Positions 26,848-45,414 of a stretch of DNA of 45,631 bases are shown here, in pieces. A program made the position numbers and the translations under genes. The stretch covers positions 1 to 45,631 of the forward strand of contig VGOW01000028.1 in assembly GCA_016875735.1 (NCBI GenBank). Direction: 5' to 3'. The DNA is from Chloroflexota bacterium (GTDB lineage Bacteria; Chloroflexota; Anaerolineae; Anaerolineales; VGOW01). Below the pieces are notes generated by a model. That model searched no databases, was not told the DNA's origin, and saw nothing but the letters and a program-made list of their open reading frames with translations. Each line of letters starts with the position of its first letter. Within the stretch, counting starts at the first letter, position 1.

Positions 26848-26987
26848 TGTTTGATCCAATGGCTATTGTAGCCCATGCGCCCTCGCCCTCCAAATTTGCG
26901 CCTATGCGATCTCTGCCAGATGCCGCGTTGCTTGTTTCCAGTTATACTGCGTGAACTGCAATGACCTGCAACAGAGAGGCGGCAACC

Positions 26988-27932: not shown

Positions 27933-27985
27933 TTGATCGAATCGCCCGCTGTGGTTATCATCTCCCCCTCGCCAAAGGAGACATG

Positions 27986-29970: not shown

Positions 29971-30008
29971 CGAAGGACGGACGCGCTCATCCCCATTCGT
30001 CATTTGCC

Positions 30009-31016
30009 ATGCCTCTCCTCTCCCGCGTTCACGCCCGCAACCTCGTGCAATGGGCAAAAGACAAGCCCGAAGTCATCGTGCTCTCGGCAGATCTCACCAG
30101 CTCCACTGAAGCCGATCTGTTTCGAGACACATATCCCGATCGTTTCTTTTCGATGGGCATGGCCGAGCAAAACATGATGAGTTTTGCGGGCGGCCTCGCC
30201 CGCGAGGGCTTTGTGCCGTGCGTGCACACCTTCGCCGTGTTCATCTATCGCCGCGCCTACGATCAGATCTGCGATTCGATTGCCTATCCGAATCTGCGCG
30301 TGCGGCTGTTCGGCTTCTTGCCCGGCGTCACCACTCCCGGCGGCGCCACTCATCAAGCCATCGAAGACATCGCCGTTCTGCGCGCCCTGCCGAACATGAC
30401 CATTGTAGAAGTGGGCGACGCCACCGATGTCGAAACGGCGCTCGACGCCATTCACGCGGCGGACGGCCCGGTGTATGTGCGAATGCTGCGCGGCGAAATC
30501 CCGCGCCTCTTCCCCGCCGACGAGCCGTTGCGGTTGGGGCGGGCCCGCGTTCTTTCCACCGGCTCCGACCTCGCTTTGTTTTCGGCCGGCATCTGCACTG
30601 AAGAAGCGATGCGCGCCACTTCGATCCTCCGCGCGCGCGGCCTTTCGATTCAGCACATGCACATTTCCACGCTCAAGCCCTTCAACGATCCTGCCGTGAT
30701 GGATGCCGCCTCTCGCGCTCGATACGGCGTGATCACAATGGAGAATCACACCATCGTCGGCGGGTTGGGCACGGCAGTGGCCGAGCGGATGGCCGAAGCG
30801 GGCGTGGGCAAACGGCTGGTTCGCATGGGGCTTAACGACACGTTCATTCACGGCGCGAGCCGCCCGTACCTCATGCGCGAATACGATCTCGACGCGCTGG
30901 CGCTGGTGCGGCAGATCGAAAAACTGACGGGCGCATCGCTCAACATCACCGAAGACGATCTGGCCGCCGTGCGCCTCGACGCCGCGCACAGCGAAGCGAA
31001 AGCCGAGGCGTTGTAA
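30009..31016 (+). CDS. Transketolase C-terminal (pyrimidine-binding) subunit
   Basis: A 335-residue protein with the transketolase central and C-terminal domains. The pyrimidine-binding segment includes FFSMGMAEQNMMSFAGGLAR with the catalytic Glu that activates ThDP, followed by FAVFIYRRAYDQI and TPGGATHQAIEDIAVLRALPN. The C-terminal domain has ITMENHTIVGGLGTAVAERM. It forms the partner of the preceding subunit. The start at 30009 is chosen from conservation; a TTG at 29967 overlapping the upstream stop would translate a short intergenic stretch that carries a GACGAA/TTCGTC inverted repeat and is not protein-like. The gene ends 34 bp before the RuBisCO-like gene. Confidence 0.88.
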   Translation: MPLLSRVHARNLVQWAKDKPEVIVLSADLTSSTEADLFRDTYPDRFFSMGMAEQNMMSFAGGLAREGFVPCVHTFAVFIYRRAYDQICDSIAYPNLRVRLFGFLPGVTTPGGATHQAIEDIAVLRALPNMTIVEVGDATDVETALDAIHAADGPVYVRMLRGEIPRLFPADEPLRLGRARVLSTGSDLALFSAGICTEEAMRATSILRARGLSIQHMHISTLKPFNDPAVMDAASRARYGVITMENHTIVGGLGTAVAERMAEAGVGKRLVRMGLNDTFIHGASRPYLMREYDLDALALVRQIEKLTGASLNITEDDLAAVRLDAAHSEAKAEAL

Positions 31017-31050
31017 AGCAAATTACCGCTTTGCCCTACGGTCTTCACAC

Positions 31051-32193
31051 ATGATTCCCTCCGTCCCTGTTCCTCTCTCCGGCGAACGTTTCCGTGTGGT
31101 ATATCGCCTCAGCGGCAGCGAGTCGGAATGCCGGGAGAAGGCGCAGGATATTTGCCTCGAGCAGACCGTTGAGTTCCCCGCCGAACTCGTGCCGGATGGC
31201 GACATCCGCAATTCGGTCGTCGGGCGAATCGAGTCGCTCGACAGAGTCGGCGAGAATCGTTTCGCCGCCATCGTCAGCTTCGCCGTCGAGACATCCGGCC
31301 CGGAACTGACTCAATTCCTCAACGTCGTCTTTGGCAACACCAGCATCAAACCCGACGCGCGCGTCGAGCGGCTTGATTTGCCGGAGTCGCTGTTGCGCGC
31401 CTTCAGCGGCCCGCGCTTCGGGCGAGAGGGATTGCGCGCGCGGCTTGGCGTGCCCCAACGCCCGTTGCTCTGCACCGCGCTCAAACCCATGGGCCTTCCG
31501 CCAAATGAGCTGGCGAGCCTCGCCTATCAATTCGCGCTCGGCGGCATCAACATTATCAAAGATGATCACGGCCTCGCCGATCAGCCGTTCGCGCCCTATC
31601 GAGAACGCGTGCGGCAATGCGCCGATGCGGTGGCGCGCGCCAACCGCGAAACCGGACTCAATTGCATTTACATGCCCAACGTCACTGCTCCGGCAGATCG
31701 ACTCGCCGCGAATGCGATGTTCGCAAAAGAAGCGGGGGCAGGGGGACTGCTGATCTCGCCCGGACTTACTGGACTCGATGCCATGCGGCAACTGGCCGAT
31801 GACGACGGTATCGGACTCCCGATCATGACTCACCCGGCACTGCAGGGGAGTTTCGTCGCCAGCCCCGACAGCGGCATTTCGCACTTTGCGCTCTTCGGCC
31901 AACTCGCCCGCTTGGCCGGAGCCGACGCGACCATCTTTCCGAACTTCGGCGGACGATTCTCTTTCAGCCGCGAGGAGTGCCACAGCATTGCCGAAGGAGC
32001 GTCGACTCCGATGGGGCGCATCAAGCCGATCTTTCCCACGCCGGGCGGCGGCATGAGTCTCGACCGTGTTCCGGAGATGATCCGCTTTTACGGGAGCGAT
32101 GTCGTTTTCCTCATTGGGGGCGGACTCCACACGCACGGCCCGGACGTTGTAGAGAACTGCCGCCACTTTAGACGGATGGTCGAAGGGCAGTAA
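31051..32193 (+). CDS. RuBisCO-like protein (form IV, RLP)
   Basis: A 380-residue RuBisCO large-subunit homologue that is not a CO2-fixing enzyme. The N-terminal domain has FGNTSIKP, and the barrel includes TALKPMG with Lys145 (equivalent to Lys175 of form II/I RuBisCO) and GGINIIKDDHGLADQPF, in which Lys170 and Asp172 are conserved but the third metal ligand, normally Glu204, is His173. Loop 6 carries no catalytic lysine motif; instead HPALQGSF and FPNFGGRFSF follow. FPTPGGGM and IGGGLHTHG keep the phosphate sites. Known RLPs act as DK-MTP-1P enolase, 5-methylthioribulose-1P isomerase or isoapionate-phosphate (de/trans)carboxylases. Grouping with mtnA and transketolase suggests enolisation of a sugar phosphate. 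Confidence 0.88.
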   Translation: MIPSVPVPLSGERFRVVYRLSGSESECREKAQDICLEQTVEFPAELVPDGDIRNSVVGRIESLDRVGENRFAAIVSFAVETSGPELTQFLNVVFGNTSIKPDARVERLDLPESLLRAFSGPRFGREGLRARLGVPQRPLLCTALKPMGLPPNELASLAYQFALGGINIIKDDHGLADQPFAPYRERVRQCADAVARANRETGLNCIYMPNVTAPADRLAANAMFAKEAGAGGLLISPGLTGLDAMRQLADDDGIGLPIMTHPALQGSFVASPDSGISHFALFGQLARLAGADATIFPNFGGRFSFSREECHSIAEGASTPMGRIKPIFPTPGGGMSLDRVPEMIRFYGSDVVFLIGGGLHTHGPDVVENCRHFRRMVEGQ

Positions 32194-32247: not shown

Positions 32248-32943
32248 ATGAAGAGCATTGCCGACAGAAGCACATTGGTGGACGACACCGCTGACCGCCT
32301 CCGCACTATGATTTTCTCGGAACAGATCAAGCCGGGGCAGTTGTTGCCTCCGCGCAAAGAATTGGCGGCGCAGTTTGGCGTGGGCATTGCTACGGTTCAT
32401 GAGGCGGTCAAATCTCTGGCGGCTGTGGGGTTGCTGGAATCCCGGCCGGGCAAAGGCACGTGGGTCAGTCACAATGCGCTCCAAAGCGTAATCCACCCGT
32501 CGATGATTCTGAATCGCTTCGGAGCAATTGATGCCCAAACGATTTATGAGGCTCGCTTGGCGCTCGAAGTGTCGTTGGCCGAGCTGGCCGCCCAGAAGGC
32601 AACGCCCGAAGAGATCCAGCGCATGTTCGATGCGCTGGATGCCGCTCAGAAAGTGATTGACGATGACGCCGAGTTCGTTCGCAGTGATTGGGAATTTCAC
32701 ATGGCGGTTGCCAAAGCCACGCACAATGTTTTGCTGCAAGCGTTTTACCATTTGTCGCGCGAACTGCTGCTCGAATTCATTCGGGATGTCATTCGCCTGC
32801 CGCAGGTGAAAGAGGAAGCCTCTAAGATTCATAGAGTGGAGGCCGAGGCCATTGCCCGGCACGATGTCGAGGCGGCTTGCACCGCCGCCCGCGAACACAT
32901 GCTATATCTGAAGCAGAAAATCTTTCCCACATCGGACTCGTAA
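32248..32943 (+). CDS. GntR-family regulator, FadR/FCD subgroup
   Basis: A 231-residue repressor-type regulator. The winged helix (about 10-75) includes KPGQLLPPRKELAAQFGVG and ATVHEAVKSLAAVGLLESRP; the FCD ligand domain (about 90-225) has the metal/ligand pattern with RSDWEFHMAVAKATHN and later histidines in EHMLYLK. FCD regulators usually sense small organic acids and control adjacent catabolic genes. It sits between the RLP cluster and the dehydrogenase-MttB cluster and has its own putative promoter. The inverted repeat at 33072-33092 next to the following promoter is a plausible operator. Confidence 0.92.
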   Translation: MKSIADRSTLVDDTADRLRTMIFSEQIKPGQLLPPRKELAAQFGVGIATVHEAVKSLAAVGLLESRPGKGTWVSHNALQSVIHPSMILNRFGAIDAQTIYEARLALEVSLAELAAQKATPEEIQRMFDALDAAQKVIDDDAEFVRSDWEFHMAVAKATHNVLLQAFYHLSRELLLEFIRDVIRLPQVKEEASKIHRVEAEAIARHDVEAACTAAREHMLYLKQKIFPTSDS

Positions 32944-33024: not shown

Positions 33025-33053
33025 TTGACTTTTTTCCAGCAGAATCATATAAT
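33025..33053 (+). promoter_or_regulatory. Near-consensus sigma-70 promoter of the dehydrogenase-OCD-MttB operon
   Basis: TTGACT (33025-33030), a 17-nt spacer, and a perfect TATAAT (33048-33053) lie 65 bp before ATG 33118. It is the best promoter match in the window. Confidence 0.8.
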
Positions 33054-33071: not shown

Positions 33072-33092
33072 CGATAATTCAGTAAGTTATCG
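33072..33092 (+). promoter_or_regulatory. Inverted repeat, candidate GntR operator
   Basis: CGATAA (33072-33077) and TTATCG (33087-33092) flank 9 nt, just downstream of the expected transcription start. The arrangement fits repression by a dimeric regulator, most simply the FCD protein encoded next door. Confidence 0.45.
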
Positions 33093-33117: not shown

Positions 33118-34020
33118 ATGAAGATAGGATACATCGGCCTCGGGAACATGGGAGGCCCGATGGCTATCAATTTGGCCAAGTCCGGGTGCGACATTGCGGT
33201 CTATGATCTGGAGCAGGGGAAAATCGCTCAGGTCGTTGCGTATGGGGCGACGGCGGCGGCCAGCGGAAAGGATGTTGCGGCCCAAGCAGATATTCTGTTT
33301 ACGTCTTTCCCGGAACCTCGCCACGTGGCCGCGGCTGTTCCCGCACTGATTGACGTTATGCAAGCCAGCTCCGTTTGGGTCGATTTGACAACCAACGATC
33401 GAGACTTGTTATTGCAATTATCGAAACGGGCGAGCGCAAGAGACGTTTCTGTTGTCGAGGCTCCAGTGACCGGCGCGGTTGACGGCGCCCGACTTGGGAA
33501 ACTCACATTCTTCGTTGGCGGCGAGAAAGGAATCATCGATCGCGTGCGCCCGTATTTTGAGATCATGGGCAAGGTGGTGGAGTGCGGCCCGTTGGGCGCG
33601 GGCAATGTCGTCAAACTCATCACCAATCAGATTTGGTTCATCAACGCCGCCGCCATCGGCGAAGGATTGGTTCTTGGCAAAAAGGCTGGGGTTGATTTGC
33701 TGGTTCTGTGGGACGCGCTCAAGAACAGCGTGGGCGACACGTTCGTTGTCCGCCACGACGTGCCGTCGATCTTTGACGGGCACTACGATCCGTCTTTCAC
33801 TCTTGACCTATGCTGTAAGGATTTGCGTTTGATCAAAGAATTGGGCGAGCAGACAAGAACGCAAATGGATATGACTCTTCTGGCGCGAGCGAAGTTCGAA
33901 GAGGCGAGGGCGGCCTTTGGAGGCGGTTCGCCCGAGTTGCTGGTGTGCAAGCTTATTGAAGACGCCAGCGAAGCCGATTTGCGAGTCGAAGGCAATTGGA
34001 CAAAACATTGGGAAGTATAG
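33118..34020 (+). CDS. NAD(P)-dependent beta-hydroxyacid dehydrogenase (HIBADH family), paralogue 1
   Basis: A 300-residue member of the 3-hydroxyisobutyrate dehydrogenase family. The Rossmann fold opens MKIGYIGLGNMGGPMAINLA; an acidic residue after the second strand (VYDLEQG) favours NAD over NADP. The substrate loop is EAPVTGAVDGA, and the catalytic lysine is Lys166 in GAGNVVKLITNQ. Members oxidise beta-hydroxy acids such as 3-hydroxyisobutyrate, tartronate semialdehyde in reverse, threonate or apionate-type sugar acids; specificity is not readable. AAGGAG lies before the ATG. First gene of the operon behind the promoter at 33025, 33 bp before its own paralogue. Confidence 0.9.
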   Translation: MKIGYIGLGNMGGPMAINLAKSGCDIAVYDLEQGKIAQVVAYGATAAASGKDVAAQADILFTSFPEPRHVAAAVPALIDVMQASSVWVDLTTNDRDLLLQLSKRASARDVSVVEAPVTGAVDGARLGKLTFFVGGEKGIIDRVRPYFEIMGKVVECGPLGAGNVVKLITNQIWFINAAAIGEGLVLGKKAGVDLLVLWDALKNSVGDTFVVRHDVPSIFDGHYDPSFTLDLCCKDLRLIKELGEQTRTQMDMTLLARAKFEEARAAFGGGSPELLVCKLIEDASEADLRVEGNWTKHWEV

Positions 34021-34053
34021 ATTCCGGAATCGTTGTTGTTCGGAGGTTATCTT

Positions 34054-34983
34054 ATGAAAGTCGGTTTTATCGGACTCGGCAACATGGGCGGAGCGGCGGC
34101 GCGGAATATCCAACGCGCCGGCTTTGATTTGATCGTCCATGATCTCCGAAGGGAGGCGGCCAACAATCTGATCGCGCACGGGGCAACTTGGGCCGACACA
34201 CCTGCGGACACCATCAATCAAGCGGACATCGTCGTCACGATGGTTTTCGGCCCGAAGCAGGTTGAGCAAGTGGTGCGCGGCGAACGCGGACTCCTCGCGG
34301 GCGATTGCCACGGCAAAGGATGGATCGATTCGACGACGAGCAGCCCGATGCTGATGCGCGAACTGGCGGCGGAGTTCGGGCGTGCCGGAGGGCTGCCGGT
34401 CGATGCGCCGGTCACCGGCTCCGTTGACGCCGCCATTCGCGGGGATATGATCATGTTCGTCGGCGGGACCGAGGCGGCCATTGCGCTCGCGCGCCCTGTG
34501 CTGAAGGCTATGGGCGAAATCCGACTCGTGGGCCAATATGGCAATGGCTACGTCGCCAAGCTGGTAAACAATCAACTTTGGAAAATACACGCCGCGGCCA
34601 TCGGCGAAGCAATGGTCGCCGCCAAAAAGGCGGGGCTTGAGCCGGGCGTGTGGTGGGCGGCAATGAAGGGCGGCGCCGCCGATAGTTTTGTGATGCAGCA
34701 CGATGTCCCCTCTATTTTCGCCGGCCATTATGATCCCTCATTTCGATTGGCGCTCTGCCTGAAGGATTTGAGCCTCATTGACGAATTGGTGCAAAAGATG
34801 GGAACGCGCTCGGAGTTGACGCAGGCAACGTATGCGCGCTTCCGCGAAGCGGCGGCGCGATACGGCGAAGATGCCGGAGAAATGACCGTTTGCAAGCTGA
34901 TCGAAGAAGATGCCGGAGTCGAATTGAGAGTCGCTGGCGACTGGATCCCCCCATGGGAGGTCAAACACCCGAATGATCAATGA
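34054..34983 (+). CDS. NAD(P)-dependent beta-hydroxyacid dehydrogenase (HIBADH family), paralogue 2
   Basis: A 309-residue paralogue of the preceding gene. It has MKVGFIGLGNMGGAAARNIQ, an Asp after strand two (VHDLRRE), the substrate loop DAPVTGSVDAA and catalytic Lys169 in GNGYVAKLVNNQ. Both copies share the C-terminal DVPSIFxGHYDPSF region, so they arose by duplication, but they differ enough to have distinct substrates or stereospecificity, or to form hetero-oligomers. The start at 34054 has GGAGG upstream; the longer frame is not supported. Its last 11 nt overlap the start of the ornithine-cyclodeaminase-family gene, showing tight coupling. Confidence 0.9.
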   Translation: MKVGFIGLGNMGGAAARNIQRAGFDLIVHDLRREAANNLIAHGATWADTPADTINQADIVVTMVFGPKQVEQVVRGERGLLAGDCHGKGWIDSTTSSPMLMRELAAEFGRAGGLPVDAPVTGSVDAAIRGDMIMFVGGTEAAIALARPVLKAMGEIRLVGQYGNGYVAKLVNNQLWKIHAAAIGEAMVAAKKAGLEPGVWWAAMKGGAADSFVMQHDVPSIFAGHYDPSFRLALCLKDLSLIDELVQKMGTRSELTQATYARFREAAARYGEDAGEMTVCKLIEEDAGVELRVAGDWIPPWEVKHPNDQ

Positions 34984-35992
34984 GACTCAGACGGAGGCGG
35001 CCAAGCCTTTGATTTCCCGTGATCGACAGTTGTTGTATTTATCGCAGGCCGATGTGATTCAAGTGGGCCTGACGATGGCCGAAGTCATCGAGTTGGTCGA
35101 AACAGCGTTCCGCGAAAAAGGGGCTGGCCGATACGAAATGCCGCCCAAGCCCGGCATTCACCCGGGCGGCGGCGACAACTTCATCCACGCTATGCCCGCG
35201 TACATCCCGGCCATGCAATCGGCTGGCCTCAAATGGGTGAGCGGCTATCCCGGCAATTCTCGGCGCGGCTTGCCGTACATCACCGGTTTGCTGATCCTCA
35301 ACGATCCGGACACCGGCCTCCCCCTCGCGATCATGGATTGCGTTTGGATCACGGCCATGCGAACGGCGGCCGCCACCGCCGTGGCCGCCCGCCGACTGGC
35401 CCGGACCGAGTCGTCTCGACTCGGCGTGCTGGGCTGTGGCGTTCAAGGCCAAACTAACACCGAAGCCCTCAACGTTCTCTTCCCCCTCAAACAAGTCTTT
35501 GCTTACGATACGCGGCCAGAAGCAGCGGAATCATTCGCCGCCGACATTTCGTCTCGCTTCGGGCTGGAAGCCATTCCGGTGCAAACCCCGCGCGAGGCGG
35601 TGGCCGGTTGCGATCTGGTGGTCACCGCCGGGCCGATCGTCAAAAAGCCGCACGCCACCATCGCCGCCGGTTGGCTCGAGGAAGGCGCTTTCGCCTCGCT
35701 GGTTGACTTTGACTCGTATTGGCATCCCGCGGCGCTGAAAGAGGCGGCAAAGTTTTGCACCGATGATGTGCCCCAGTTCAATCATTATCGAGAGATTGGC
35801 TACTTTCAAGATGTCCCGCCGATCTATGCCGACTTGGGCGAACTGGTGGCCGGAATCAAACCGGGCCGCGAGAACCCAACCGAACGGACGATTGCCTGCA
35901 ATCTCGGTGTGGCGTTGGATGATATGGCAGTGGCCCCCGCAATTTACCGGCGAGCCATTGCCCAAAATATCGGTCGGCATTTGCCGCTATAG
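34973..35992 (+). CDS. Ornithine cyclodeaminase / mu-crystallin family protein
   Basis: A 339-residue NAD(P)-binding protein of the OCD/mu-crystallin family. The N-terminal substrate domain has LYLSQADVIQVGLTMAEVIE and LKWVSGYPGNSRRGLP with the conserved lysine; the Rossmann part has RTAAATAVAARRL and LGVLGCGVQGQTNTEAL. Family reactions include ornithine cyclisation, alanine or lysine dehydrogenation and ketimine (pyrroline-2-carboxylate) reduction, all on amino acids or cyclic imines. It overlaps the upstream dehydrogenase gene and is 11 bp before the first MttB-like gene, so a demethylated amino acid or imine is a reasonable substrate guess. Confidence 0.88.
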   Translation: MINETQTEAAKPLISRDRQLLYLSQADVIQVGLTMAEVIELVETAFREKGAGRYEMPPKPGIHPGGGDNFIHAMPAYIPAMQSAGLKWVSGYPGNSRRGLPYITGLLILNDPDTGLPLAIMDCVWITAMRTAAATAVAARRLARTESSRLGVLGCGVQGQTNTEALNVLFPLKQVFAYDTRPEAAESFAADISSRFGLEAIPVQTPREAVAGCDLVVTAGPIVKKPHATIAAGWLEEGAFASLVDFDSYWHPAALKEAAKFCTDDVPQFNHYREIGYFQDVPPIYADLGELVAGIKPGRENPTERTIACNLGVALDDMAVAPAIYRRAIAQNIGRHLPL

Positions 35993-36003
35993 GAGGAGTC
36001 ACG

Positions 36004-37434
36004 ATGTTCGGCCCTGATTTGAGATTCAAACCGAAGTTGACCGTGCTCAACCCGGCGCAGATCGAGCAGATTCATCAGGCCACACTGGAAGTGTTGGAGC
36101 GAACCGGCGTGGAGGTGGCGCACGCGCGCGCCCTCGAGTTGTTGCATGGCGGAGGCGCTCGCGTCGATGGCAAACGAGTGCGGCTTCCATCGTGGATGGT
36201 TGAGCGGGCGATCCGCCAAGCGCCTCACCGAGTCGTTCTCGGAGATCGCTCCGGCGAGCGCAAAGTATTTTTGGAGGGCGATAAGTCATGGTTCGGGCCG
36301 AGCCTCGATTGCATCGACTATTTGGATCCGCTGACGGACGAGCGGCGGCGATTCGTCAGCGACGATTGCCGGATCACGGCGACTGTCGCCGATGCTCTGC
36401 CCAACTTCAGTTGGGTGATGACCATTGGTATGGCCGACGACGTGCCCGCCGACATCGCTGACCGAGTCATTGCCCGGCAAGTGTTTCAGACCACGGTGAA
36501 GCCACTGGTGTTTTGCTGCAAAGACGCCAACAGCGTGCGCGATATTTACGAGATGGCGCTCCTCATCGCTGGAAGTGAATCGAGATTCCGGGGTGCGCCG
36601 ACTATCGTGCATTATTCGGAGCCAATCTCGCCGTTGCTCTATTATGATCCGGCGGTTGAAAAGATTTTGTTCTGCGCCGAATACGGCATCCCGTTGATCA
36701 ACTTCCCCGCGCCGCAGGGCGGCAGCACCGCCCCGGCCACCTTCGCTGGTGAAATCGTGCAGGCCAGCGCCGAATCCCTCAGCGGACTCGTGCTGGCTCA
36801 ATTGGCGCGGCCGGGCGCTCCTTTCATCTACGGCGCATTCGCTACTGTGATGGACATGCGCACCACTGTGTTTTCCTATGGCGCGGCGGAAATGAGTTTG
36901 ATGGTTGCCGCCATGTCCCAAATGGCTCAACACTATCAACTGCCGTTCTTCGGCACTGCGGGGGCCACCGATGCAAAATTCCCCGACGCGCAGGCGGGCG
37001 CCGAAGTAGCCTTCTCCTGCCTCGCTTCGGCTCTCGTCGGCGCGAACTTGGTTCACGACGCCGGCAGTTGGCTCGATCACGGATCCCTCGCCTCGCCTGC
37101 GTTCATGGTGCTGGTCAACGAGATCATTTCGATGGTCAATCAGTTCATGGGCGGAGTGCCAGTGAACGGTGAAACTCTGGCATTGGAGATGATTGATCGT
37201 GTCGGGCCGGGCGGCCATTTTCTGAATGAGGATCACACCCTCCGCCATTTCCGCGACGTGTGGTATTCCAATGTTTTCGACCGCACGATCTACACCGCTT
37301 GGCTGGCAGAAGATGGCCGACGCTTCGAGCAGCGGCTTCGCGATCACACCGCCGAACTGATGCAGCACCGACCGGCCCCTTTGCCAGATGCGACTCTGGC
37401 TGAGTTGGAAAAGATGGCGCGGCACTGGAAGTGA
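36004..37434 (+). CDS. MttB-family (trimethylamine methyltransferase-like) corrinoid methyltransferase, copy A
   Basis: A 476-residue TIM-barrel protein of the MttB superfamily. The typical opening LNPAQIEQIHQATLEVLERT, the DALPNFSWVMTIGMADDVPA block, HYSEPISPLLYYDPAVEKIL, and DRVGPGGHFLNEDHTLRHFR near the C-terminus identify it. The frame has no in-frame amber codon, so it is a non-pyrrolysine member; such proteins demethylate quaternary amines such as glycine betaine, proline betaine or carnitine, passing the methyl group to a corrinoid protein. AGGAGGAG precedes the ATG. It is the last gene of the dehydrogenase-OCD operon. It is the most divergent of the three copies, lacking the MRVNYQTN start shared by the other two. 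Confidence 0.92.
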   Translation: MFGPDLRFKPKLTVLNPAQIEQIHQATLEVLERTGVEVAHARALELLHGGGARVDGKRVRLPSWMVERAIRQAPHRVVLGDRSGERKVFLEGDKSWFGPSLDCIDYLDPLTDERRRFVSDDCRITATVADALPNFSWVMTIGMADDVPADIADRVIARQVFQTTVKPLVFCCKDANSVRDIYEMALLIAGSESRFRGAPTIVHYSEPISPLLYYDPAVEKILFCAEYGIPLINFPAPQGGSTAPATFAGEIVQASAESLSGLVLAQLARPGAPFIYGAFATVMDMRTTVFSYGAAEMSLMVAAMSQMAQHYQLPFFGTAGATDAKFPDAQAGAEVAFSCLASALVGANLVHDAGSWLDHGSLASPAFMVLVNEIISMVNQFMGGVPVNGETLALEMIDRVGPGGHFLNEDHTLRHFRDVWYSNVFDRTIYTAWLAEDGRRFEQRLRDHTAELMQHRPAPLPDATLAELEKMARHWK

Positions 37435-37547: not shown

Positions 37548-37598
37548 AAGTTCAGGCCAATGGATCGTGGGGTTATTGTTGCCTGAACTTTTCTTTTT
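37548..37598 (+). terminator. Intrinsic terminator or attenuator between the two MttB units
   Basis: AAGTTCAGGC (37548-37557) and GCCTGAACTT (37581-37590) form a perfect 10-bp stem, followed by TTCTTTTTG. Only 41 bp remain before the MtrH-like ATG, too little for an independent promoter with leader, so read-through or attenuation is possible. The rest of 37435-37547 contains only TGATATATCA (37495-37504), a 10-bp palindrome. Confidence 0.75.
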
Positions 37599-37639
37599 GT
37601 CAGTGGCGGCATCTCTCCAATCGTGAAAGGTTCGATGGC

Positions 37640-38488
37640 ATGGAGTCCAAACTTATTGGTCGAAAAACTGAAGTGTTGATCGGCCCCGATCTGCCGACGG
37701 TGATCATCGGCGAACGCATCAACCCAACCGGCAAGAAAAAATTGGCCGAGGCGTTGCGCGCCGGGGATATGGATTATGTGCGCCAACTTGCGCTGACTCA
37801 AGTGGAGCAGGGCGCACAAGTGATCGACGTCAATGTGGGCACCACAGGGGTGGTAGAAGAAGTTGTATTGCCTCGCGCTGTAGAAATGGTGGCCGACGCC
37901 ACCGGCCTGCCGGTCTGCATCGATTCGCCGGATGAAAAGGCTTTGCCCGCGGCGTTGAAAATTTGCGGCGGCAAGCCGCTCATCAATTCGGTGAACGGGG
38001 AAGAGGCCTCGCTGGCGCGGGTGCTTCCCCTCGTCAAAGAATTCGATGCCAGCGTGATCGGATTGACGATGGACGACGACGGCATCCCCGATACCGCCGA
38101 AGGCCGCCTGCGCGTCGCCGAAAAGATTGTGGAGCGCGCGGCCAAATTGGGCATCGGCCCGGAGCGCATTTTGGTGGATTGCCTCGCCCTCACGGTCGGC
38201 GCTGATCATCGCGCCGCGCTGACCACGCTGACGGCCATTCGCCTTGTGCGCGAAAAACTCGGAGTGAATCTTGCTCTCGGCGCATCCAATGTGTCGCACG
38301 GTTTGCCGGACCGCGAGACAGTCAACGGCTATTTCATTGCTATGGCGATTGCCGCTGGAGTGAACTGCCCCATCGTCGATCCCGGCAAAGCGCGAGAGTC
38401 GGTCGTTGTGGCCGATCTGCTCACGGGGCGCGACGAATGGTCGCAAAACTATTTGGCGCATTATCGGGCCGCCCATCCCGAGTCGTAG
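37640..38488 (+). CDS. Methyltetrahydrofolate:corrinoid methyltransferase (MtrH/AcsE/MtgA-like)
   Basis: A 282-residue pterin-binding TIM barrel. VIIGERINPTGKKKLAEAL (22-40), VIDVNVGTTG (61-70), VCIDSPDEKAL, LINSVNGE and GASNVSHGLPDRETVNG (214-230) are the conserved blocks of the dihydropteroate-synthase-like methyltransferases that move methyl groups between corrinoid protein and tetrahydrofolate; Asn217 is the usual pterin-side residue. In MttB-type pathways this enzyme receives the methyl group from methyl-Co(III) and makes 5-methyl-THF. AAAGG lies upstream of the ATG. It heads the block with the corrinoid protein and two further MttB-like genes. Confidence 0.92.
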   Translation: MESKLIGRKTEVLIGPDLPTVIIGERINPTGKKKLAEALRAGDMDYVRQLALTQVEQGAQVIDVNVGTTGVVEEVVLPRAVEMVADATGLPVCIDSPDEKALPAALKICGGKPLINSVNGEEASLARVLPLVKEFDASVIGLTMDDDGIPDTAEGRLRVAEKIVERAAKLGIGPERILVDCLALTVGADHRAALTTLTAIRLVREKLGVNLALGASNVSHGLPDRETVNGYFIAMAIAAGVNCPIVDPGKARESVVVADLLTGRDEWSQNYLAHYRAAHPES

Positions 38489-38570: not shown

Positions 38571-40028
38571 ATGCGCGTAAATTACCAAACAAATTCAGCG
38601 GTTCAATTTCAGATCCTCACCGACGATCAACGCCAGGAAATTTTTCGCTCGGCGTTGCAGGTGATGGAACATACGGGCATCGAGGTGCACAACGAGGAGG
38701 CGCTGTCGGTGTTGAAGGCGCAGGGCGCGGCAGTGGAGGGCACGCGCGCGCGCATTCCGGGTTATCTCGTTCAGCGCGCGTTGTCCACTGCGCCGTCGAT
38801 GTTCACGGTGTACAGCCGCGAGGGCAACACCGCCAAAAATATCACCATCGGGCCGAACCACATCAACTACGGCCCCGGCCCCACGTGCCCCAACTTCCGC
38901 GACGCGCGCACCAATGAACGGCGCAAATATCTGCGCCGGGACGCGACCGACGTGGCTCGCGTGTGCGACGCACTGCCGAACATCGACTTCGTCGAGTCGC
39001 TCGGCACGATCAACGATGTGAATATCGATCTGGCCGACGTGTACGAGTTTGCCGATATGATTGCCAACACCGGCAAGCCCATTGTGGCTTGGTCGTACAC
39101 GCTCGAAACGTGCCGCGACATTCACCAAATCGCGGCGGCGGTGGCCGGCGGCGAAGACAAACTCCGCCAAAAGCCCAACTACATTTTCTACGCCGAGCCG
39201 CTTTCGCCGTTGGTGTCGAGCCGTGAGGCCGCCGACAAACTTCTCTATTGCTCGAAGCATCGCATCCCCATCATTTACACGCCGTGCCCCATGTGCGGCG
39301 GCACCGCGCCCACCACGTCGGCGGGCATATTGGTGACGGCCATGTGCGAGTCACTGCATGGGTTGGTGATCTCGCAAGCCATCTCGCCCGGCACGCCGTT
39401 CGTGATGGGCGGCGTCGTGTCCATCATGGATATGCTCAGCTCGGTGCTGGCCTACGGCGCGCCCGAGTTGGCATTGCAGTCGGCGGCGATCACCGAAATG
39501 GCGCGATACGTCGGCCTGCCCGTGTGGTCAACCGCTGGCTGCACCGACTCGAAACTGGTGGATGAGCAGGCCGGAATCGAAAGCGCGTTGTCGATCCTGC
39601 TGGCCGGACTCTCCGGCGCGAATCTGGCGCATGATGTCGGCTTCATCGAATCGGCGTTGACTGGCTCACTGCAAATGGCAACGATGAGCGATGAGATCAT
39701 CGGTTACGTGAAACGGATTCTGCGCGGGATCGAGGTGACGCCGGAGACGTTAGCCACGCAAGTCATCCAAGAAGTGGGCCCGGGCGGACACTACTTGGGA
39801 ACCGATCACACGCTCGGACATTTCAAGACTCAATTCTATTTCCCGCAGCTCATGGATCGCTCGCGCTGGGAAGAGTGGGAAGCGATGGGGCATCCCTCGA
39901 TGGGCGATCGCGTGCAAATGCGGGTCAACGATATTCTGGACACACACGAGCCAGCGCTGCTTGCGCCGGAAGTGAAGAAGCAGATCGAAGACATTCTGGC
40001 GAAGGCCGAAGCACGGTATCGCGACTAA
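38571..40028 (+). CDS. MttB-family corrinoid methyltransferase, copy B
   Basis: A 485-residue MttB-superfamily protein. It starts MRVNYQTNSAVQFQILTDDQ; ATG 38571 is preferred over the in-frame GTG 38562 because AAAAGGAGG sits 8 nt upstream. The blocks ALPNIDFVESLGTINDVNID, YTPCPMCGGTAPTTSAG, SGANLAHDVGFIESAL and VGPGGHYLGTDHTLGHF are typical. No in-frame stop codon interrupts the barrel, so it is a non-pyrrolysine member acting on an unknown N-methyl compound. It lies between the MtrH-like enzyme and the corrinoid protein, the genuine partner position. Confidence 0.93.
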   Translation: MRVNYQTNSAVQFQILTDDQRQEIFRSALQVMEHTGIEVHNEEALSVLKAQGAAVEGTRARIPGYLVQRALSTAPSMFTVYSREGNTAKNITIGPNHINYGPGPTCPNFRDARTNERRKYLRRDATDVARVCDALPNIDFVESLGTINDVNIDLADVYEFADMIANTGKPIVAWSYTLETCRDIHQIAAAVAGGEDKLRQKPNYIFYAEPLSPLVSSREAADKLLYCSKHRIPIIYTPCPMCGGTAPTTSAGILVTAMCESLHGLVISQAISPGTPFVMGGVVSIMDMLSSVLAYGAPELALQSAAITEMARYVGLPVWSTAGCTDSKLVDEQAGIESALSILLAGLSGANLAHDVGFIESALTGSLQMATMSDEIIGYVKRILRGIEVTPETLATQVIQEVGPGGHYLGTDHTLGHFKTQFYFPQLMDRSRWEEWEAMGHPSMGDRVQMRVNDILDTHEPALLAPEVKKQIEDILAKAEARYRD

Positions 40029-40054: not shown

Positions 40055-40693
40055 ATGAGCGACACACTCGTACAGATTTCTAATGCAGTGATTGAAGGCC
40101 GTGTGAAGGATGCGCCCGGCCTCACCCATAACGCTTTGCAGGCGGGACTGACGGCTAAAGACATTCTCGACAAAGGCTTGATGCCGGGCATGGATGTTGT
40201 GGGCGCGGAGTTCAAGAAAGGCAAAAAGTTTGTACCCGAAGTTCTCCTCTCGGCGCGCACCATGCAGGCCTCGCTCGACATTCTCAAGCCGCTGCTGGCG
40301 GAAGCCGGAGCGAAGATGACCGGCAAAGTTGTCGTCGGCACCGTGAAGGGCGACCTGCACGACATCGGTAAAAACCTGGTGGGCATGATGCTCGAAGGCT
40401 CCGGCTTCGAGGTGGTTGATTTGGGCAAAGACGTGGCGCCCGAAAAGTTCGTGGATGCGGTGAAGAAAGAAAAGCCGAACATCGTCGCCATGTCGGCCCT
40501 GCTCACCACCACCATGCGTTCGATGGGCCACACGGTGACGGCGTTGAAGGAAGCCGGGCTGCGCGACGCGGTAAAGATCATGATCGGCGGCGCTCCGGTG
40601 ACGGCTGATTTCGCCGCCCAGATCGGCGCGGATGCTTACGCGCCCAACGCGCCTGCGGCGGCCGAACTCGCCAAGAAGTTCGTCAGCGCTTAA
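40055..40693 (+). CDS. Corrinoid (B12-binding) methyl carrier protein, MttC/MtgC-like
   Basis: A 212-residue corrinoid protein. An N-terminal helical cap domain (about 1-85, with AGLTAKDILDKGLMPGMDVV and PEVLLSARTMQASLDILKP) precedes the Rossmann-like B12 domain with VKGDLHDIGKNLVG, where His102 is the lower cobalt ligand, then GSGFEVVDLGKDVAPEKFV, MSALLTTTMRSM and GGAPVTADFAAQIGADAY. It carries the methyl group between the MttB-like proteins and the MtrH-like enzyme. ATG 40055 has AAAGGAG upstream. It is the only corrinoid protein in the window although three MttB-like genes are present. Confidence 0.95.
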   Translation: MSDTLVQISNAVIEGRVKDAPGLTHNALQAGLTAKDILDKGLMPGMDVVGAEFKKGKKFVPEVLLSARTMQASLDILKPLLAEAGAKMTGKVVVGTVKGDLHDIGKNLVGMMLEGSGFEVVDLGKDVAPEKFVDAVKKEKPNIVAMSALLTTTMRSMGHTVTALKEAGLRDAVKIMIGGAPVTADFAAQIGADAYAPNAPAAAELAKKFVSA

Positions 40694-40695
40694 TC

Positions 40696-41376
40696 ATGCC
40701 GCTGTACATTCTCGCTTGCCGCGTGCTCCAAACCATCATGGAGCCGTATCTGCGCGCCGCCGACACCCTGGCGACGTTCATGGAATACGGCTTCCATCGC
40801 ACACCTCAGTTGATGACCCCTGCCTTGCAGGAAGAATTGGACAAGGTGGCGGAGCCATCGGTGTTCATTATCGGCTACGGGTTGTGCGGCAACGGCCTCG
40901 CCGGGTTGAAGGCGCGCCAGCACACGCTCATCGTGCCTCGCGCCGATGATTGCATTTCTCTCCTGCTCGGCTCTTATGAACGCTATATCCAAGAGTTCAG
41001 CGAAGAGCCGGGAACATACTACCTCACCAAAGGCTGGCTGGAGAGCGGCAGTCACCCGCTGAAGGAATACCGCGAACTGCTGGAGAAGTACGACCAAGAA
41101 ACCGCCGACTGGATTCTCGACGAGCAGTACCGCAACTACAAGCGCATCGTATTTGTCGCTTCCAGCGAAGAGGAGCGGGAGTCGTATCGGCACAAGGCCA
41201 AAGAGGCGGCCGACTTTTGCGTGGAGCGGTGGGGTTTCCGGTATGAGGAGCGGGTGGGCACCAACGAGTTCGTGGACAAACTGATGACGGTGGCCCGCGA
41301 GTTCACCGAATCGAACGACGACTTCCTCGTGATTCCGCCCGGCGGCGAGATCAAACAGGAAATGTACTGGAGATAG
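40696..41376 (+). CDS. DUF1638 family protein
   Basis: A 226-residue protein of the uncharacterised DUF1638 family. Conserved-looking features are GYGLCGNGLAGLKA (61-74, Cys64), PRADDCISLLLGS (81-93, Cys86) and PGTYYLTKGWLE (105-116), followed by a second half with EYRELLEKYDQETADWIL and a final HxD-like ESNDDFLVIPPGG. Similar genes are found in methylotrophic archaea and bacteria near corrinoid methyltransferases. It starts only 2 nt after the corrinoid protein stop, and an MttB gene follows 12 bp later, which argues for a direct role in methyl transfer or corrinoid handling. No function is known; the two cysteines suggest metal or corrinoid contact, which is inference. Confidence 0.85.
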   Translation: MPLYILACRVLQTIMEPYLRAADTLATFMEYGFHRTPQLMTPALQEELDKVAEPSVFIIGYGLCGNGLAGLKARQHTLIVPRADDCISLLLGSYERYIQEFSEEPGTYYLTKGWLESGSHPLKEYRELLEKYDQETADWILDEQYRNYKRIVFVASSEEERESYRHKAKEAADFCVERWGFRYEERVGTNEFVDKLMTVAREFTESNDDFLVIPPGGEIKQEMYWR

Positions 41377-41388
41377 CAGGAGACGCCC

Positions 41389-42864
41389 ATGAGAGTCAAC
41401 TATCAAACCAACGTCACACCACGAATGCAAGTGGTGTCAACGGATCAAATTGAGCAAATCGTTTATGCGGCGATGGATGTTCTGCAAAACACGGGCACGC
41501 TCGTGTATCAGCAGGAAGCGCTCGAACTTCTGCGGGATGCCGGATGCGTGATCAAAGATGAGAATCTCGTCTTCATCCCGGCGGCGTTGGTGGAGAACAG
41601 CCTGCGGTCTGCGCCGTCGCGGATTGTGATTGCTGGACGCAATCGCGAGAAGCGAGTGGCGTTGGAGAAGAACCGCATCTTCTACGGCACCGGCTCCGAC
41701 TGCCCCTTCATCATCGACCCGCACACCGGCCAGCGGCGGCGCTATACCTTCGAAGATGTGTATCGCGCGGCGAAGATTGCCGACGCTCTGCCGAACATTG
41801 ATTTCCACATGTCGCTCGGCCTCACCTCGGACGTGCCCATCGGCACCTATGACCGCCACCAACTCTATGCGATGATGCGCGGAACGTCGAAGCCGTTTGT
41901 GATCACGGCCAACGATCGCGAAGGTCTTTCTGATCAATATGAAATGGCCTGCACGGCCATCGGCGGCGTGGATGAATGGAAGCGATTGCCGATGTTCGTG
42001 GTGTACATCGAGCCGAGCTCGCCGCTGAGCAACTCGGTGGAAGCCGTCGAGAAATTGCTGTTCTCCGCCGAGCGCGACATCCCGGCCATTTACACCCCGT
42101 GCCCCATCAGCGGCGCAACCGCGCCCGCAACCATGGCTGGAGTGATGGTGCAGTGCTTGGCCGAATTCTTCACCGGCCTCGTCATCTCGCAGCTGAAGAA
42201 GAAAGGCGCGGCGGTGATCATGGGCGGCGTCACTTCCTTATTGGATATGGCGACCACCGTCCTGTCATACGGTGCGCCCGAACTTTCGCTGATCAGCGCG
42301 GCGATGACCAACGTGGCGCAGTATCTCAAACTGCCTATGTTTTCCACTGCCGGTTGCTCCGACGCGAAGATGCTCGATCAACAAGCCGCCATCGAAGCCG
42401 CTATTTCGATTGCGATAGCCGGGCTGTCGGGCGCGAATCTGATTCACGATGTGGGCTACCTCGAGTCGGGCTTGCACGGCTCGTACGACATGCTGGTGAT
42501 GTCCAACGAGATCATCGGCATGGTAAAACGGATTCTGCGCGGGGTGACGGTGGACGCCGACCACCTCGCGGTGGAAGCCATCGAGCGCGTGGGGCCGGGC
42601 GGCCACTTCCTCACCGACGATCATACGCTCCAGCACTTCCGCTCCGAATTTTGGATGCCCGAATTGCTGGATCGTTCGAACTGGGATGTGTGGGAGGCCA
42701 ACGGCTCGAAGACTCTGCGGGAGCGCGTGCACGAGCGGGTGCTCGATCTCATCGAGAATTACCAGCCCGAGCCGATCCCTGCCGAAATCGACTCGCGATT
42801 GAAACTGATCATCGCTCGCGCCGACGAGTTGCACGAAGGCGAGGAGCAGATCGCGTTGGTATAG
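41389..42864 (+). CDS. MttB-family corrinoid methyltransferase, copy C
   Basis: A 491-residue MttB-superfamily protein that shares MRVNYQTN at its start with copy B and is clearly its closest relative here. Blocks include ALPNIDFHMSLGLTSDVPIG, YIEPSSPLSNSVEAVEKLLF, YTPCPISGATAPATMAG, AGLSGANLIHDVGYLESGLH and RVGPGGHFLTDDHTLQHFR. No in-frame stop interrupts it. AGGAGA precedes the ATG, 12 bp after the DUF1638 gene. Differences from copy B in the cavity stretches (for example CPISGATAP against CPMCGGTAP) suggest another methylated substrate. Ends 16 bp before a strong hairpin. Confidence 0.93.
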   Translation: MRVNYQTNVTPRMQVVSTDQIEQIVYAAMDVLQNTGTLVYQQEALELLRDAGCVIKDENLVFIPAALVENSLRSAPSRIVIAGRNREKRVALEKNRIFYGTGSDCPFIIDPHTGQRRRYTFEDVYRAAKIADALPNIDFHMSLGLTSDVPIGTYDRHQLYAMMRGTSKPFVITANDREGLSDQYEMACTAIGGVDEWKRLPMFVVYIEPSSPLSNSVEAVEKLLFSAERDIPAIYTPCPISGATAPATMAGVMVQCLAEFFTGLVISQLKKKGAAVIMGGVTSLLDMATTVLSYGAPELSLISAAMTNVAQYLKLPMFSTAGCSDAKMLDQQAAIEAAISIAIAGLSGANLIHDVGYLESGLHGSYDMLVMSNEIIGMVKRILRGVTVDADHLAVEAIERVGPGGHFLTDDHTLQHFRSEFWMPELLDRSNWDVWEANGSKTLRERVHERVLDLIENYQPEPIPAEIDSRLKLIIARADELHEGEEQIALV

Positions 42865-42913: not shown

Positions 42914-43822
42914 ATGAGCAGATTGAAAGTGATTCCTGTTCTGGCGGTTGCTCTCGCGCGGCGCGGATATTTGCTTGTCCTCGCCGCGACTATTTGTTGG
43001 GCGACCTCCGGCACGTTCATCAAAATCATCCGGCAGAATTACGACCTCTCGGCGTGGACGCTGGCCTTTTGGCGCGATCTGCTCACCTTCCTCATTTTCT
43101 TCGCTATCACCGCTTCGCTGGGGCGGGAGAAGCTGCGCGTGGCGTGGGGCGATCTGCCTTCGCTGGCGGCGATGGGCGCGATCAGCATCGGCATCTTTCA
43201 CGTGCTGTGGAATACCGCCGTGGCGATGATCCCGGTGGCGGTCGCCACCGTGTTGAACTACACCGCGCCCGTGTTTGTCGTTTTGTTCGCGTGGATGCTG
43301 TGGCGCGAGAAGCCCAATCGGACTCAAGCGATTGCTCTCACTCTGGCGTTTGCGGGATGCGTGCTGGTGACCGGCGCGTACAATGTGGCCGACAAGACTC
43401 AAGACTGGCTGGGACTCCTCATTGGCCTTTCCACCGGAATCACCTATGGCACATTTTCCATCTTCGGGAAGGCGGCCCTCAAGCGATACGACTCGTGGAC
43501 GGTGCTCACTTATGCTTTCGGCTTTGCCGCGCTCACCGTGTTCATCCTGCAACCCAGCGCCCCACTGCAACTGTTCGCCAGCCCATTGGGCGCGTGGCTG
43601 TGGGTGATCACTCTTGTGCTCATCTCCACCGTCACCGGCTTCAGCTTTTACACCAGCGGATTGAAACACCTCTCGGTGGGCTCGGCCAGCATCACCGCCA
43701 CCATCGAGCCGGTGATGGCCACCGGCTTTGCCTTTTTCCTTCTCGGCGAAGTCATCGGCCTCCTCCAAATTCTCGGCGGCCTGCTCGTCATCGCCGCCGT
43801 CGCTCTCCTTTCCGCAAGGTAG
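42914..43822 (+). CDS. EamA/DMT-superfamily transporter
   Basis: A 302-residue protein with ten hydrophobic segments arranged as two EamA repeats (about 15-145 and 160-295). Sequence features such as LAATICWATSGTFIKIIRQ and AVATVLNYTAPVFVVLFAWML in the first half and SVGSASITATIEPVMATGFA in the second are typical for this family of metabolite exporters or importers. Its ATG directly abuts the hairpin at 42881-42911 and no Shine-Dalgarno is visible, so the next in-frame start could be used instead. It lies between the last MttB-like gene and the RACo-type gene; transport of a substrate or demethylated product is an inference from position. Confidence 0.88.
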   Translation: MSRLKVIPVLAVALARRGYLLVLAATICWATSGTFIKIIRQNYDLSAWTLAFWRDLLTFLIFFAITASLGREKLRVAWGDLPSLAAMGAISIGIFHVLWNTAVAMIPVAVATVLNYTAPVFVVLFAWMLWREKPNRTQAIALTLAFAGCVLVTGAYNVADKTQDWLGLLIGLSTGITYGTFSIFGKAALKRYDSWTVLTYAFGFAALTVFILQPSAPLQLFASPLGAWLWVITLVLISTVTGFSFYTSGLKHLSVGSASITATIEPVMATGFAFFLLGEVIGLLQILGGLLVIAAVALLSAR

Positions 43823-43869: not shown

Positions 43870-45414
43870 ATGCCCTCTCTCTCCGTAATTTATTCCGATG
43901 AAACGCGCGCGGTCGAGTGCGCCGTTGGGCAAGTCATTGGCGAAGCCATTCCCGCCAGCGGCTTCCCATTGGAACAGCCCTGCGCCGGGCGCGGCACGTG
44001 CGGCAAATGCAAAGTGCTGGCCGAAGGCGAGTTGGCCGATCTGGACGAGATCGAAAAGAAATTTTTGCTTGCCGCCGAACGCGAGGCCAAAGTGCGTTTG
44101 GCCTGCCGCGCGCGCATCGCCGGGAACGCGCAAGTGACGCTGACCCCCGTCGTCGTTTATTCCAACAAAGCCTTCACCCGTTCCAACGAATACAAAACCA
44201 ACGATCACCCTCTTGGCCTCGCCGTCGATCTCGGCTCGACCACGGTGGCGGCTTTCCTCGTTTCGCTGAAAACCGGCATGGTGTATGCCGGAGCCGCCGC
44301 GCTCAATCAACAAACCATCTTCGGCGCCGATGTCATCGCCCGGCTCGCGGCGGCAGAAACCGATTCGCTCAAACTCTCCGCGCTGGCGCAGGCCTCCATT
44401 TATCAAGCCGTTGCCGCGCTCAAACTTTCCAAGCGCGTGCTGGCTCGCATTCAGCGAGCCGAAATCGTAGGCAACGCGGCCATGCACCATTTGCTCATGC
44501 GTTACCCGGTGCACACGTTGGCCGTCGTGCCGTTCCAACCTTACGACCGCACTGCGATTCCGGACGCGGGCGATTTCTTCAGCACTCTCTTTCCCGCGCA
44601 AGCGCGCGTGTCGCTCGCGCCGCTCATCGGCGGTTTCGTCGGCTCCGACACCACTGCCTGCCTCGCTTACTTCGGTTTTGATCGCGCCAGCGAGCCGATG
44701 CTGGCTATCGATCTCGGCACGAACGGCGAAGTGATGGCAACCAACGGGCGCGACATCCTCGTGGCCTCCACCGCCGCGGGCCCGGCCTTCGAGGGCGTGA
44801 ACATCTCCTGCGGCACCCGCGCAGTGGACGGCGCAATCGTGGATGCCGCGCTCAACGATGGGCGGCTTCACCTCGCCACCATTGGCAATCGGCATCCCAT
44901 CGGCCTCACCGGATCGGGATTGCTCAGCGTCGTTCACGCGCTGAAATGCGCCAGAGTGGTGGAGGCCAGCGGGCGATTGGTTGATCGCCACGATCTACTG
45001 CCCATCGAAGAGGGCGCAGATGAAATTGCGCGGGTGAGACTCGGCGACCGGGTGACGCTGACTCAAATGGACGTGCGCGAACTGCAAAAAGCCAAAGCCG
45101 CCATTCGCGTGGCCGCCGACATCGCCCTCGAACGACTCGGCGTGCGCCCCGAAGACTTGCGCCGCGTGGTTCTCACCGGATCGTTTGGCAGTCAATTGAA
45201 CATCGAGGCCGTGCTCGGCGTGGGGCTGATCCCCACCGTGGATCGCTCGCGCGTCGAATTGATCGCCAACGGCGCGGGGCTCGGCGCGGCCATGTTTTTG
45301 CGCGACGACGGATTCAAAATCGGCGAGGCGTTGGCCGAACGCACGGCGCACGTCGAGCTCGACCTCGAGCCGGAATTCAACATGCGCTTTGTCGAGTGCA
45401 TGGGTTTGGAGTAA
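43870..45414 (+). CDS. RACo-type reductive activator of corrinoid protein ([2Fe-2S] ferredoxin + DUF4445 ASKHA)
   Basis: A 514-residue protein. The N-terminal ferredoxin-like domain (about 1-95) has Cys38, Cys44, Cys47 and Cys79 (QPCAGRGTCGKCKVL, RLACRAR), a plant-type [2Fe-2S] site. From about 110 follows the ASKHA ATPase DUF4445 domain with LAVDLGSTTVAAFLV, EIVGNAAMHHLLM and LAIDLGTNGEVMAT. RACo proteins use ATP hydrolysis to reduce inactive Co(II) to Co(I) on corrinoid methyl carriers. Together with the corrinoid protein, MtrH-like and MttB-like genes it completes the catalytic set. No ribosome site is visible; the start is from the conserved N-terminus. Confidence 0.94.
   Translation: MPSLSVIYSDETRAVECAVGQVIGEAIPASGFPLEQPCAGRGTCGKCKVLAEGELADLDEIEKKFLLAAEREAKVRLACRARIAGNAQVTLTPVVVYSNKAFTRSNEYKTNDHPLGLAVDLGSTTVAAFLVSLKTGMVYAGAAALNQQTIFGADVIARLAAAETDSLKLSALAQASIYQAVAALKLSKRVLARIQRAEIVGNAAMHHLLMRYPVHTLAVVPFQPYDRTAIPDAGDFFSTLFPAQARVSLAPLIGGFVGSDTTACLAYFGFDRASEPMLAIDLGTNGEVMATNGRDILVASTAAGPAFEGVNISCGTRAVDGAIVDAALNDGRLHLATIGNRHPIGLTGSGLLSVVHALKCARVVEASGRLVDRHDLLPIEEGADEIARVRLGDRVTLTQMDVRELQKAKAAIRVAADIALERLGVRPEDLRRVVLTGSFGSQLNIEAVLGVGLIPTVDRSRVELIANGAGLGAAMFLRDDGFKIGEALAERTAHVELDLEPEFNMRFVECMGLE

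Follow-up and report, generated by a model that had tools for sequence, protein, structure and literature searches.

The 45,631-bp contig VGOW01000028.1 of a Chloroflexota bacterium of the order Anaerolineales, analysed here as a whole (the window; C28 among the 150 contigs of a 4.15-Mb genome), contains a transcription unit with four genes: two dehydrogenases of the 3-hydroxyisobutyrate dehydrogenase type (HIBADH), designated HBD1 and HBD2, an enzyme of the ornithine cyclodeaminase/mu-crystallin family (OCD), and MttA, a methyltransferase of the MttB superfamily. The best reading of this operon is that of the known MttB-superfamily betaine demethylation, joined by a seemingly undescribed OCD partner and by a lineage-specific insertion of dehydrogenases. 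We propose, with a probability of about one in two, that the FCD-regulated unit heads a corrinoid methyltransferase locus, in which MttA would demethylate a carboxylated quaternary amine, in the likeliest case a compound of the proline betaine type, and methylate the corrinoid protein encoded at 40055-40693; a MeTr-like protein would then pass the methyl group to tetrahydrofolate, while a RACo protein would reactivate the corrinoid. The OCD enzyme would handle the demethylated product, interconverting the amino acid and a cyclic imine or keto acid (e.g., proline and Δ1-pyrroline-2-carboxylate), and the HBD pair, a lineage-specific addition under the MttA promoter, would probably act on a downstream acid.

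The four genes form one tight unit, from a promoter to a terminator-like hairpin. The start of OCD overlaps the end of HBD2 by 11 nt, OCD and MttA are separated by 11 bp, and clear ribosome-binding sites precede all four genes; HBD2 starts at the ATG at 34054, associated with CGGAGG, an alternative TTG at 34033 being weaker. The promoter, TTGACT-17-TATAAT, ranks first of the 9 promoter-like sites in 18.8 kb, versus 6.0 +/- 2.3 expected in shuffled sequence. The hairpin 3′ of MttA has a perfect outer stem (GTTCAGGC/GCCTGAAC), then TTTTCTTTTT, and none of 200 shuffles was equally stable; since the hairpin and its T-run directly follow MttA, the unit comprises exactly these four genes.

Relatives of MttA were sampled by scanning a collection of 84,980 species with a pattern-based search, which gave 19 named loci, and among 400 genomes of the same order, four of which, this one included, carry MttA (loci L128 and L129 are two of these four and are not additional to them). 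The closest relative found, the MttA of locus L127 (79% identity), is directly preceded by a homologous promoter, TTGACT-17-TATGAT, which has in common with that of HBD1 TTGACTTTTTTC, the 17-nt spacer and a downstream AAATAT-CG; its positional score is 34, versus 24 as the 99% limit of random windows. Before other MttA or OCD genes a counterpart was found only in part, in L129. A scan for the promoter boxes over whole loci did not rise above shuffles, so that only the positional test counts. L127 also carries, divergent to MttA, a 75% orthologue of the FCD regulator. The inverted repeat just 3′ of the window's promoter may be an FCD operator; a perfect repeat was sought and not found in L127, where the counterpart of CGATAA-N9-TTATCG is imperfect. 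The preliminary description of this stretch had given the gene coordinates, the 11-nt overlap, the 11-bp gap and the near-consensus promoter, and had proposed a single operon linked to the FCD regulator; all of this agrees with the spacing, the 11/12 promoter match, the hairpin and the regulator orthologue of L127.

MttA is a member of the MttB superfamily (Pfam MTTB, E 1e-93; 314.5 bits versus a cut-off of 25, residues 10-470). A pyrrolysine-type MttB, i.e., a trimethylamine methyltransferase, is ruled out by the score with the equivalog model TIGR02369 (388.8 bits, cut-off 525) together with the absence of an in-frame TAG codon in MttA. An Rfam PYLIS_3 match inside the gene (36964-37063) is likewise without a TAG codon and reflects homologous coding sequence. 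The closest solved relatives are 2qne and the glycine betaine methyltransferase 9yce (E about 2e-62). The relatives at the 19 loci are 56-79% identical to the window MttA, the nearest named records being Chloroflexi/Anaerolineae metagenome-assembled genomes; in a maximum-likelihood tree MttA belongs to a clade of 23 sequences (support 100/100), spanning Chloroflexota, Desulfobacterota-type and Spirochaetota genomes. In locus L121 (1832-9000) a 50% relative is accompanied by an FCD regulator and lies next to amidohydrolases and AllG/CoA-ligase-type genes of oxamate/ureide metabolism, which suggests N-methyl ureides as the substrates of that branch.

The OCD enzyme belongs to its family (Pfam OCD_Mu_crystall, E 3e-66; 223.8 bits versus a cut-off of 24), and the solved structures most similar to it are those of archaeal alanine dehydrogenase and Δ1-pyrroline-2-carboxylate reductase; it stays below every NCBIfam curated cut-off, including those of the Δ1-pyrroline-2-carboxylate reductase equivalogs (116.7 versus 322 and 75.1 versus 400 bits). 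Its orthologues in the order (57-72%) stand sharply apart from other OCDs (40% or less). OCD lies directly upstream of MttA in all four MttA-bearing genomes of the order, and adjoins MttA also in L130, L131, L139 and L144. Indeed, the window, L130 and three order relatives group together both in the OCD tree (99/96) and in the MttA tree (98/89, here with L127 included); these matching groups indicate that the two genes were inherited together. OCD-MttA is the conserved core of the operon, and an FCD regulator accompanies it. Same-genus genomes have neither MttA nor a close orthologue of this OCD. A separate OCD lineage (35-39%) occurs in the order MttB-OCD-corrinoid protein in three order relatives (L069-L071). 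Searches for literature joining MttB or ‘trimethylamine methyltransferase’ with ornithine cyclodeaminase found none; the recurring pair suggests that OCD is a partner of MttB-type demethylases that the literature searched does not describe. The genome's second OCD gene (L161:7319-10350, on contig C5 of G000) is found in an OCD-EamA-DAO run, echoing the neighbours of MttA.

The genes beside the MttA relatives bear on the substrate. A proline racemase with both catalytic cysteines adjoins MttA in L132 and L137, with a related fragment in L136, and a FAD enzyme of the DAO family does so in L127, L131 and L132, with a weaker one in L136; MttA relatives with such neighbours are 70-78% identical to the window MttA, about as close as the OCD-linked ones. 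The best solved match of the MttA-adjacent DAO is 1y56_B, annotated as sarcosine oxidase; the entry is a Pyrococcus L-proline dehydrogenase. The gene order is MttA-OCD-MttA-DAO in L131 and BCCT-OCD-MttA-EamA in L144, whose MttA is 56% identical. In the catabolism of proline and hydroxyproline, enzymes of the OCD, DAO and proline racemase families act as partners (PMC4113996), and MttB homologues of the non-pyrrolysine type are demethylases of carboxylated quaternary amines, among them proline betaine (PMC8604678, PMC12155760). Thus, because of the proline racemase, DAO, OCD and BCCT transporter neighbours, a carboxylated quaternary amine of the proline betaine type is the most likely substrate of MttA. 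The earlier proposal that the operon serves the breakdown of an N-methylated amino-acid derivative is supported by these data; as for stachydrine or betonicine, which had been named as candidates, the proline part fits the racemase, the proline/sarcosine-dehydrogenase-like DAO, the OCD and the BCCT gene beside close MttA relatives, whereas the hydroxyl group relies on one genome. The literature search for hydroxyproline betaine demethylation found no report. An MR_MLE enzyme is encoded near MttA in L134 and L138; a HpbD-type epimerase is unsupported for that of L134, the closest solved entries being muconate-cycloisomerase-like.

Several observations weigh against this assignment. A choline-kinase-like gene, which resembles the kinase of the phosphocholine pathway (MthK/MthB), lies upstream of MttA relatives in L133-L135; a hydantoinase A-like gene adjoins MttA in L131, L140, L141, L143 and L145, followed by an FCD gene in four of these five; and sugar-type genes adjoin it in L139. 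These neighbours imply that the MttA clade may include several substrates. MttA is also only distant kin of the solved glycine betaine enzyme, the sequence of MtpB, the proline betaine enzyme, lying outside the comparison. As to OCD, 19 of the 27 orthologues in its clade have no MttB neighbour, and linkage to MttB changes at least four times on the tree; the enzyme thus works also without MttB, and its reaction may be general rather than tied to it. Finally, the role given to the HBDs derives from one genome. It is therefore worth considering that the same OCD-MttA pair acts on another carboxylated quaternary amine, such as glycine betaine, carnitine, gamma-butyrobetaine or a hydroxylated betaine, with the HBDs oxidising the hydroxyl group or the resulting hydroxyacid, in line with the earlier proposal. 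Known MttB homologues include enzymes for glycine betaine, carnitine and gamma-butyrobetaine (PMC8604678, PMC12155760), and in L128/L049 DMGDH-like FAD enzymes occur together with a homocysteine S-methyltransferase, a combination known from the degradation of glycine betaine; moreover, in L155 a HBD1-like gene lies beside MR_MLE, DAO, DMGDH-like and gamma-butyrobetaine-hydroxylase-like genes, a set that keeps alive the idea of an HBD contribution to a betaine pathway. However, the L155 gene shares just 38% identity and its contig has no MttB gene next to it, the HBDs are missing from every other MttA locus, and the racemase beside MttA in L132, L136 and L137 indicates proline chemistry, so that this alternative is rather unlikely. 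An MR_MLE-HIBADH pair is present in the order relatives L155 and L156; in the high-GC locus L153 the calls of open reading frames were noisy.

Both HBD1 and HBD2 have the Pfam domains NAD_binding_2 and NAD_binding_11, and in both the catalytic lysine of the β-hydroxyacid dehydrogenase family is intact (GNVVKLITN and GYVAKLVNN align with the lysine stretch of 3cky/1vpd), which places them in this family. The closest solved structures are 2-(hydroxymethyl)glutarate dehydrogenase (3cky) for HBD1 and tartronate semialdehyde reductase (1vpd) for HBD2; neither is a 3-hydroxyisobutyrate dehydrogenase proper (TIGR01692, 161.2 and 153.1 versus 291.6 bits), and the best NCBIfam models are tartronate-semialdehyde-reductase-like, with all equivalog cut-offs missed. 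They had been called duplicated: the two are paralogues, but share only 44% identity, which points to an old duplication; the genome has just one further HIBADH gene.

No HIBADH gene was found near MttA at any of the 19 named loci, nor in the other three genomes of the order that carry MttA. The conserved synteny HIBADH-HIBADH-OCD-MttB, a check proposed beforehand, is thus rejected except for its OCD-MttA part; the view that the two HIBADHs belong to a conserved or described pathway is not supported, and neither, in consequence, is the suggestion of a hydroxylated substrate. Across the genomes sampled, the coupling of HIBADHs to OCD-MttA appears as a single-genome, lineage-specific trait. Among the 400 order genomes, a close HBD1 occurs in one (G050, 79%) and a close HBD2 in one (G002, same genus, 89%), each stand-alone and away from methyltransferases. 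The simplest history, which we infer from the fact that the HBD1 promoter is the one directly preceding MttA in L127, is that this lineage acquired the pair by insertion downstream of the MttA promoter and ahead of OCD-MttA; a flanking gene of the G002 HBD2 was sought in this genome and not found, so that no empty site is shown.

The stand-alone position of these orthologues, the tartronate-semialdehyde-reductase-like models, below cut-off as they are, and the absence from all other MttA loci also agree with HBDs that are passengers, namely general or sugar-acid dehydrogenases that ended up downstream of the MttA promoter without taking part in methylamine metabolism. Conversely, the tight spacing, the good ribosome-binding sites, the intact lysine in both and their position under the conserved MttA promoter suggest joint expression with MttA; the passenger reading is fairly unlikely. 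A bolder version of the proposed scheme, in which cyclic betaines are degraded by a widespread and so far undescribed OCD-MttA route that combines corrinoid demethylation with imine reduction or stereo-inversion (by OCD and DAO, or by proline racemase), and the HBD pair extends it here to a hydroxylated betaine or an acid product, is distinctly unlikely.

Upstream of the regulator, the window contains one run of GNAT, IF-2B/MtnA-like, split transketolase (N and C) and RuBisCO-like genes (26961-32193), possibly a methionine-salvage-like or sugar-phosphate pathway. A single sugar-acid pathway formed by this cluster and the HBDs would agree with their common strand and the distance of 1 kb, but it is highly improbable: the transketolase-RuBisCO-like pair recurs, about 70% conserved, in genus mates (L174, L175; genomes G001, G004) that gave no close match to an HBD or to MttA, G002 and G050, which have the HBD orthologues, lack that RuBisCO-like protein, and the FCD gene and the promoter separate the cluster from the HBDs. 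Membership of the HBDs in this cluster is thus disfavoured, cluster and HBD orthologues being in different genomes, and its recurrence in the genus mates indicates that it is independent of the four-gene unit.

Downstream of the unit, the predicted functions include all that the transfer of methyl groups to tetrahydrofolate requires, with a corrinoid protein, a corrinoid:tetrahydrofolate methyltransferase and a reductive activase (Table 1); a comparable set is found in Eubacterium limosum (PMC8604678, PMC12155760), and DUF1638 has been tied to cobalamin recharging (PMC12478193). L141 and L143 have a matching MeTr/corrinoid/MttB/corrinoid/MttC block near their MttA relative, with DUF1638 too in L141. 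The genome encodes 11 MttB-superfamily, 2 OCD and 3 HIBADH-type genes, and a second methyltransferase cluster in it includes a methylenetetrahydrofolate reductase gene. On contig C5 (L159:9206-12039, G000) a divergent MttB paralogue directly adjoins tryptophan 2,3-dioxygenase, with kynureninase divergent to it; this paralogue might act on tryptophan betaine (hypaphorine).

Table 1. Features of the four-gene unit and of its surroundings in the window.
Feature	Position	Strand	Basis or remark
GntR/FCD-family regulator	32248..32943	+	Pfam GntR + FCD; 75% orthologue in L127
Sigma-70-type promoter TTGACT-17-TATAAT	33025..33053	+	11/12 match; L127 counterpart TTGACT-17-TATGAT
Inverted repeat CGATAA-N9-TTATCG, putative FCD operator	33072..33092	+	just 3′ of promoter; predicted function
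HBD1, β-hydroxyacid dehydrogenase family, 300 aa	33118..34020	+	Pfam
HBD2, β-hydroxyacid dehydrogenase family, 309 aa	34054..34983	+	Pfam
OCD/mu-crystallin-family NAD(P)-dependent imine reductase / amino-acid dehydrogenase, 339 aa	34973..35992	+	Pfam
MttA, non-pyrrolysine MttB-superfamily methyltransferase, 476 aa	36004..37434	+	Pfam MTTB
Terminator-like hairpin + T-run closing the four-gene unit	37548..37599	+	z -3.2
MeTr/MtgA-like pterin-binding methyltransferase, putatively methyl-corrinoid to tetrahydrofolate	37640..38488	+	Pfam Pterin_bind; NCBIfam NF005719 above cut-off
MttB copy B, second MttB-superfamily methyltransferase	38571..40028	+	Pfam; orthologues in L124, L141, L143
Corrinoid-binding protein	40055..40693	+	Pfam B12-binding + B12-binding_2; ATG with AAAGGAG
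DUF1638 protein	40696..41376	+	Pfam
MttB copy C, third MttB-superfamily methyltransferase	41389..42864	+	Pfam; tree
EamA-family transporter	42914..43822	+	Pfam
RACo/RamA-type corrinoid reductive activase	43870..45414	+	Pfam Fer2 + Raco_middle + RACo_C_ter

MttB-superfamily members with a known substrate are few, six by a 2025 count (PMC12155760). The occurrence of the MttA clade in several phyla, with OCD, DAO and proline racemase neighbours, offers a concrete substrate prediction, namely proline-type betaines; if true, betaine demethylation would extend to uncultured Chloroflexota and Desulfobacterota-type lineages. Similarly to the MtgB, MtpB, MtcB and MtyB systems, the locus combines a MTTB-family enzyme devoid of an in-frame TAG with a corrinoid protein, a MeTr-like protein and a RACo-type activase, and regulator and transporter genes adjoin; unlike them, its methyltransferase operon also encodes OCD and two HIBADHs, and a single corrinoid protein is accompanied by three MttB paralogues. 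OCD shares its OCD_Mu_crystall domain and closest solved structures with Δ1-pyrroline-2-carboxylate reductase and archaeal alanine dehydrogenase. OCD-family enzymes of the former kind work beside proline racemase-family enzymes (PMC4113996); unlike in those systems, OCD here adjoins a methyltransferase and not a 3-hydroxyproline dehydratase, and scores below the NCBIfam cut-offs. The HBDs, in turn, resemble tartronate semialdehyde reductase and 2-(hydroxymethyl)glutarate dehydrogenase in both Pfam domains and the motif lysine, but differ from them in their position in a methyltransferase operon and in their scores below the equivalog cut-offs.

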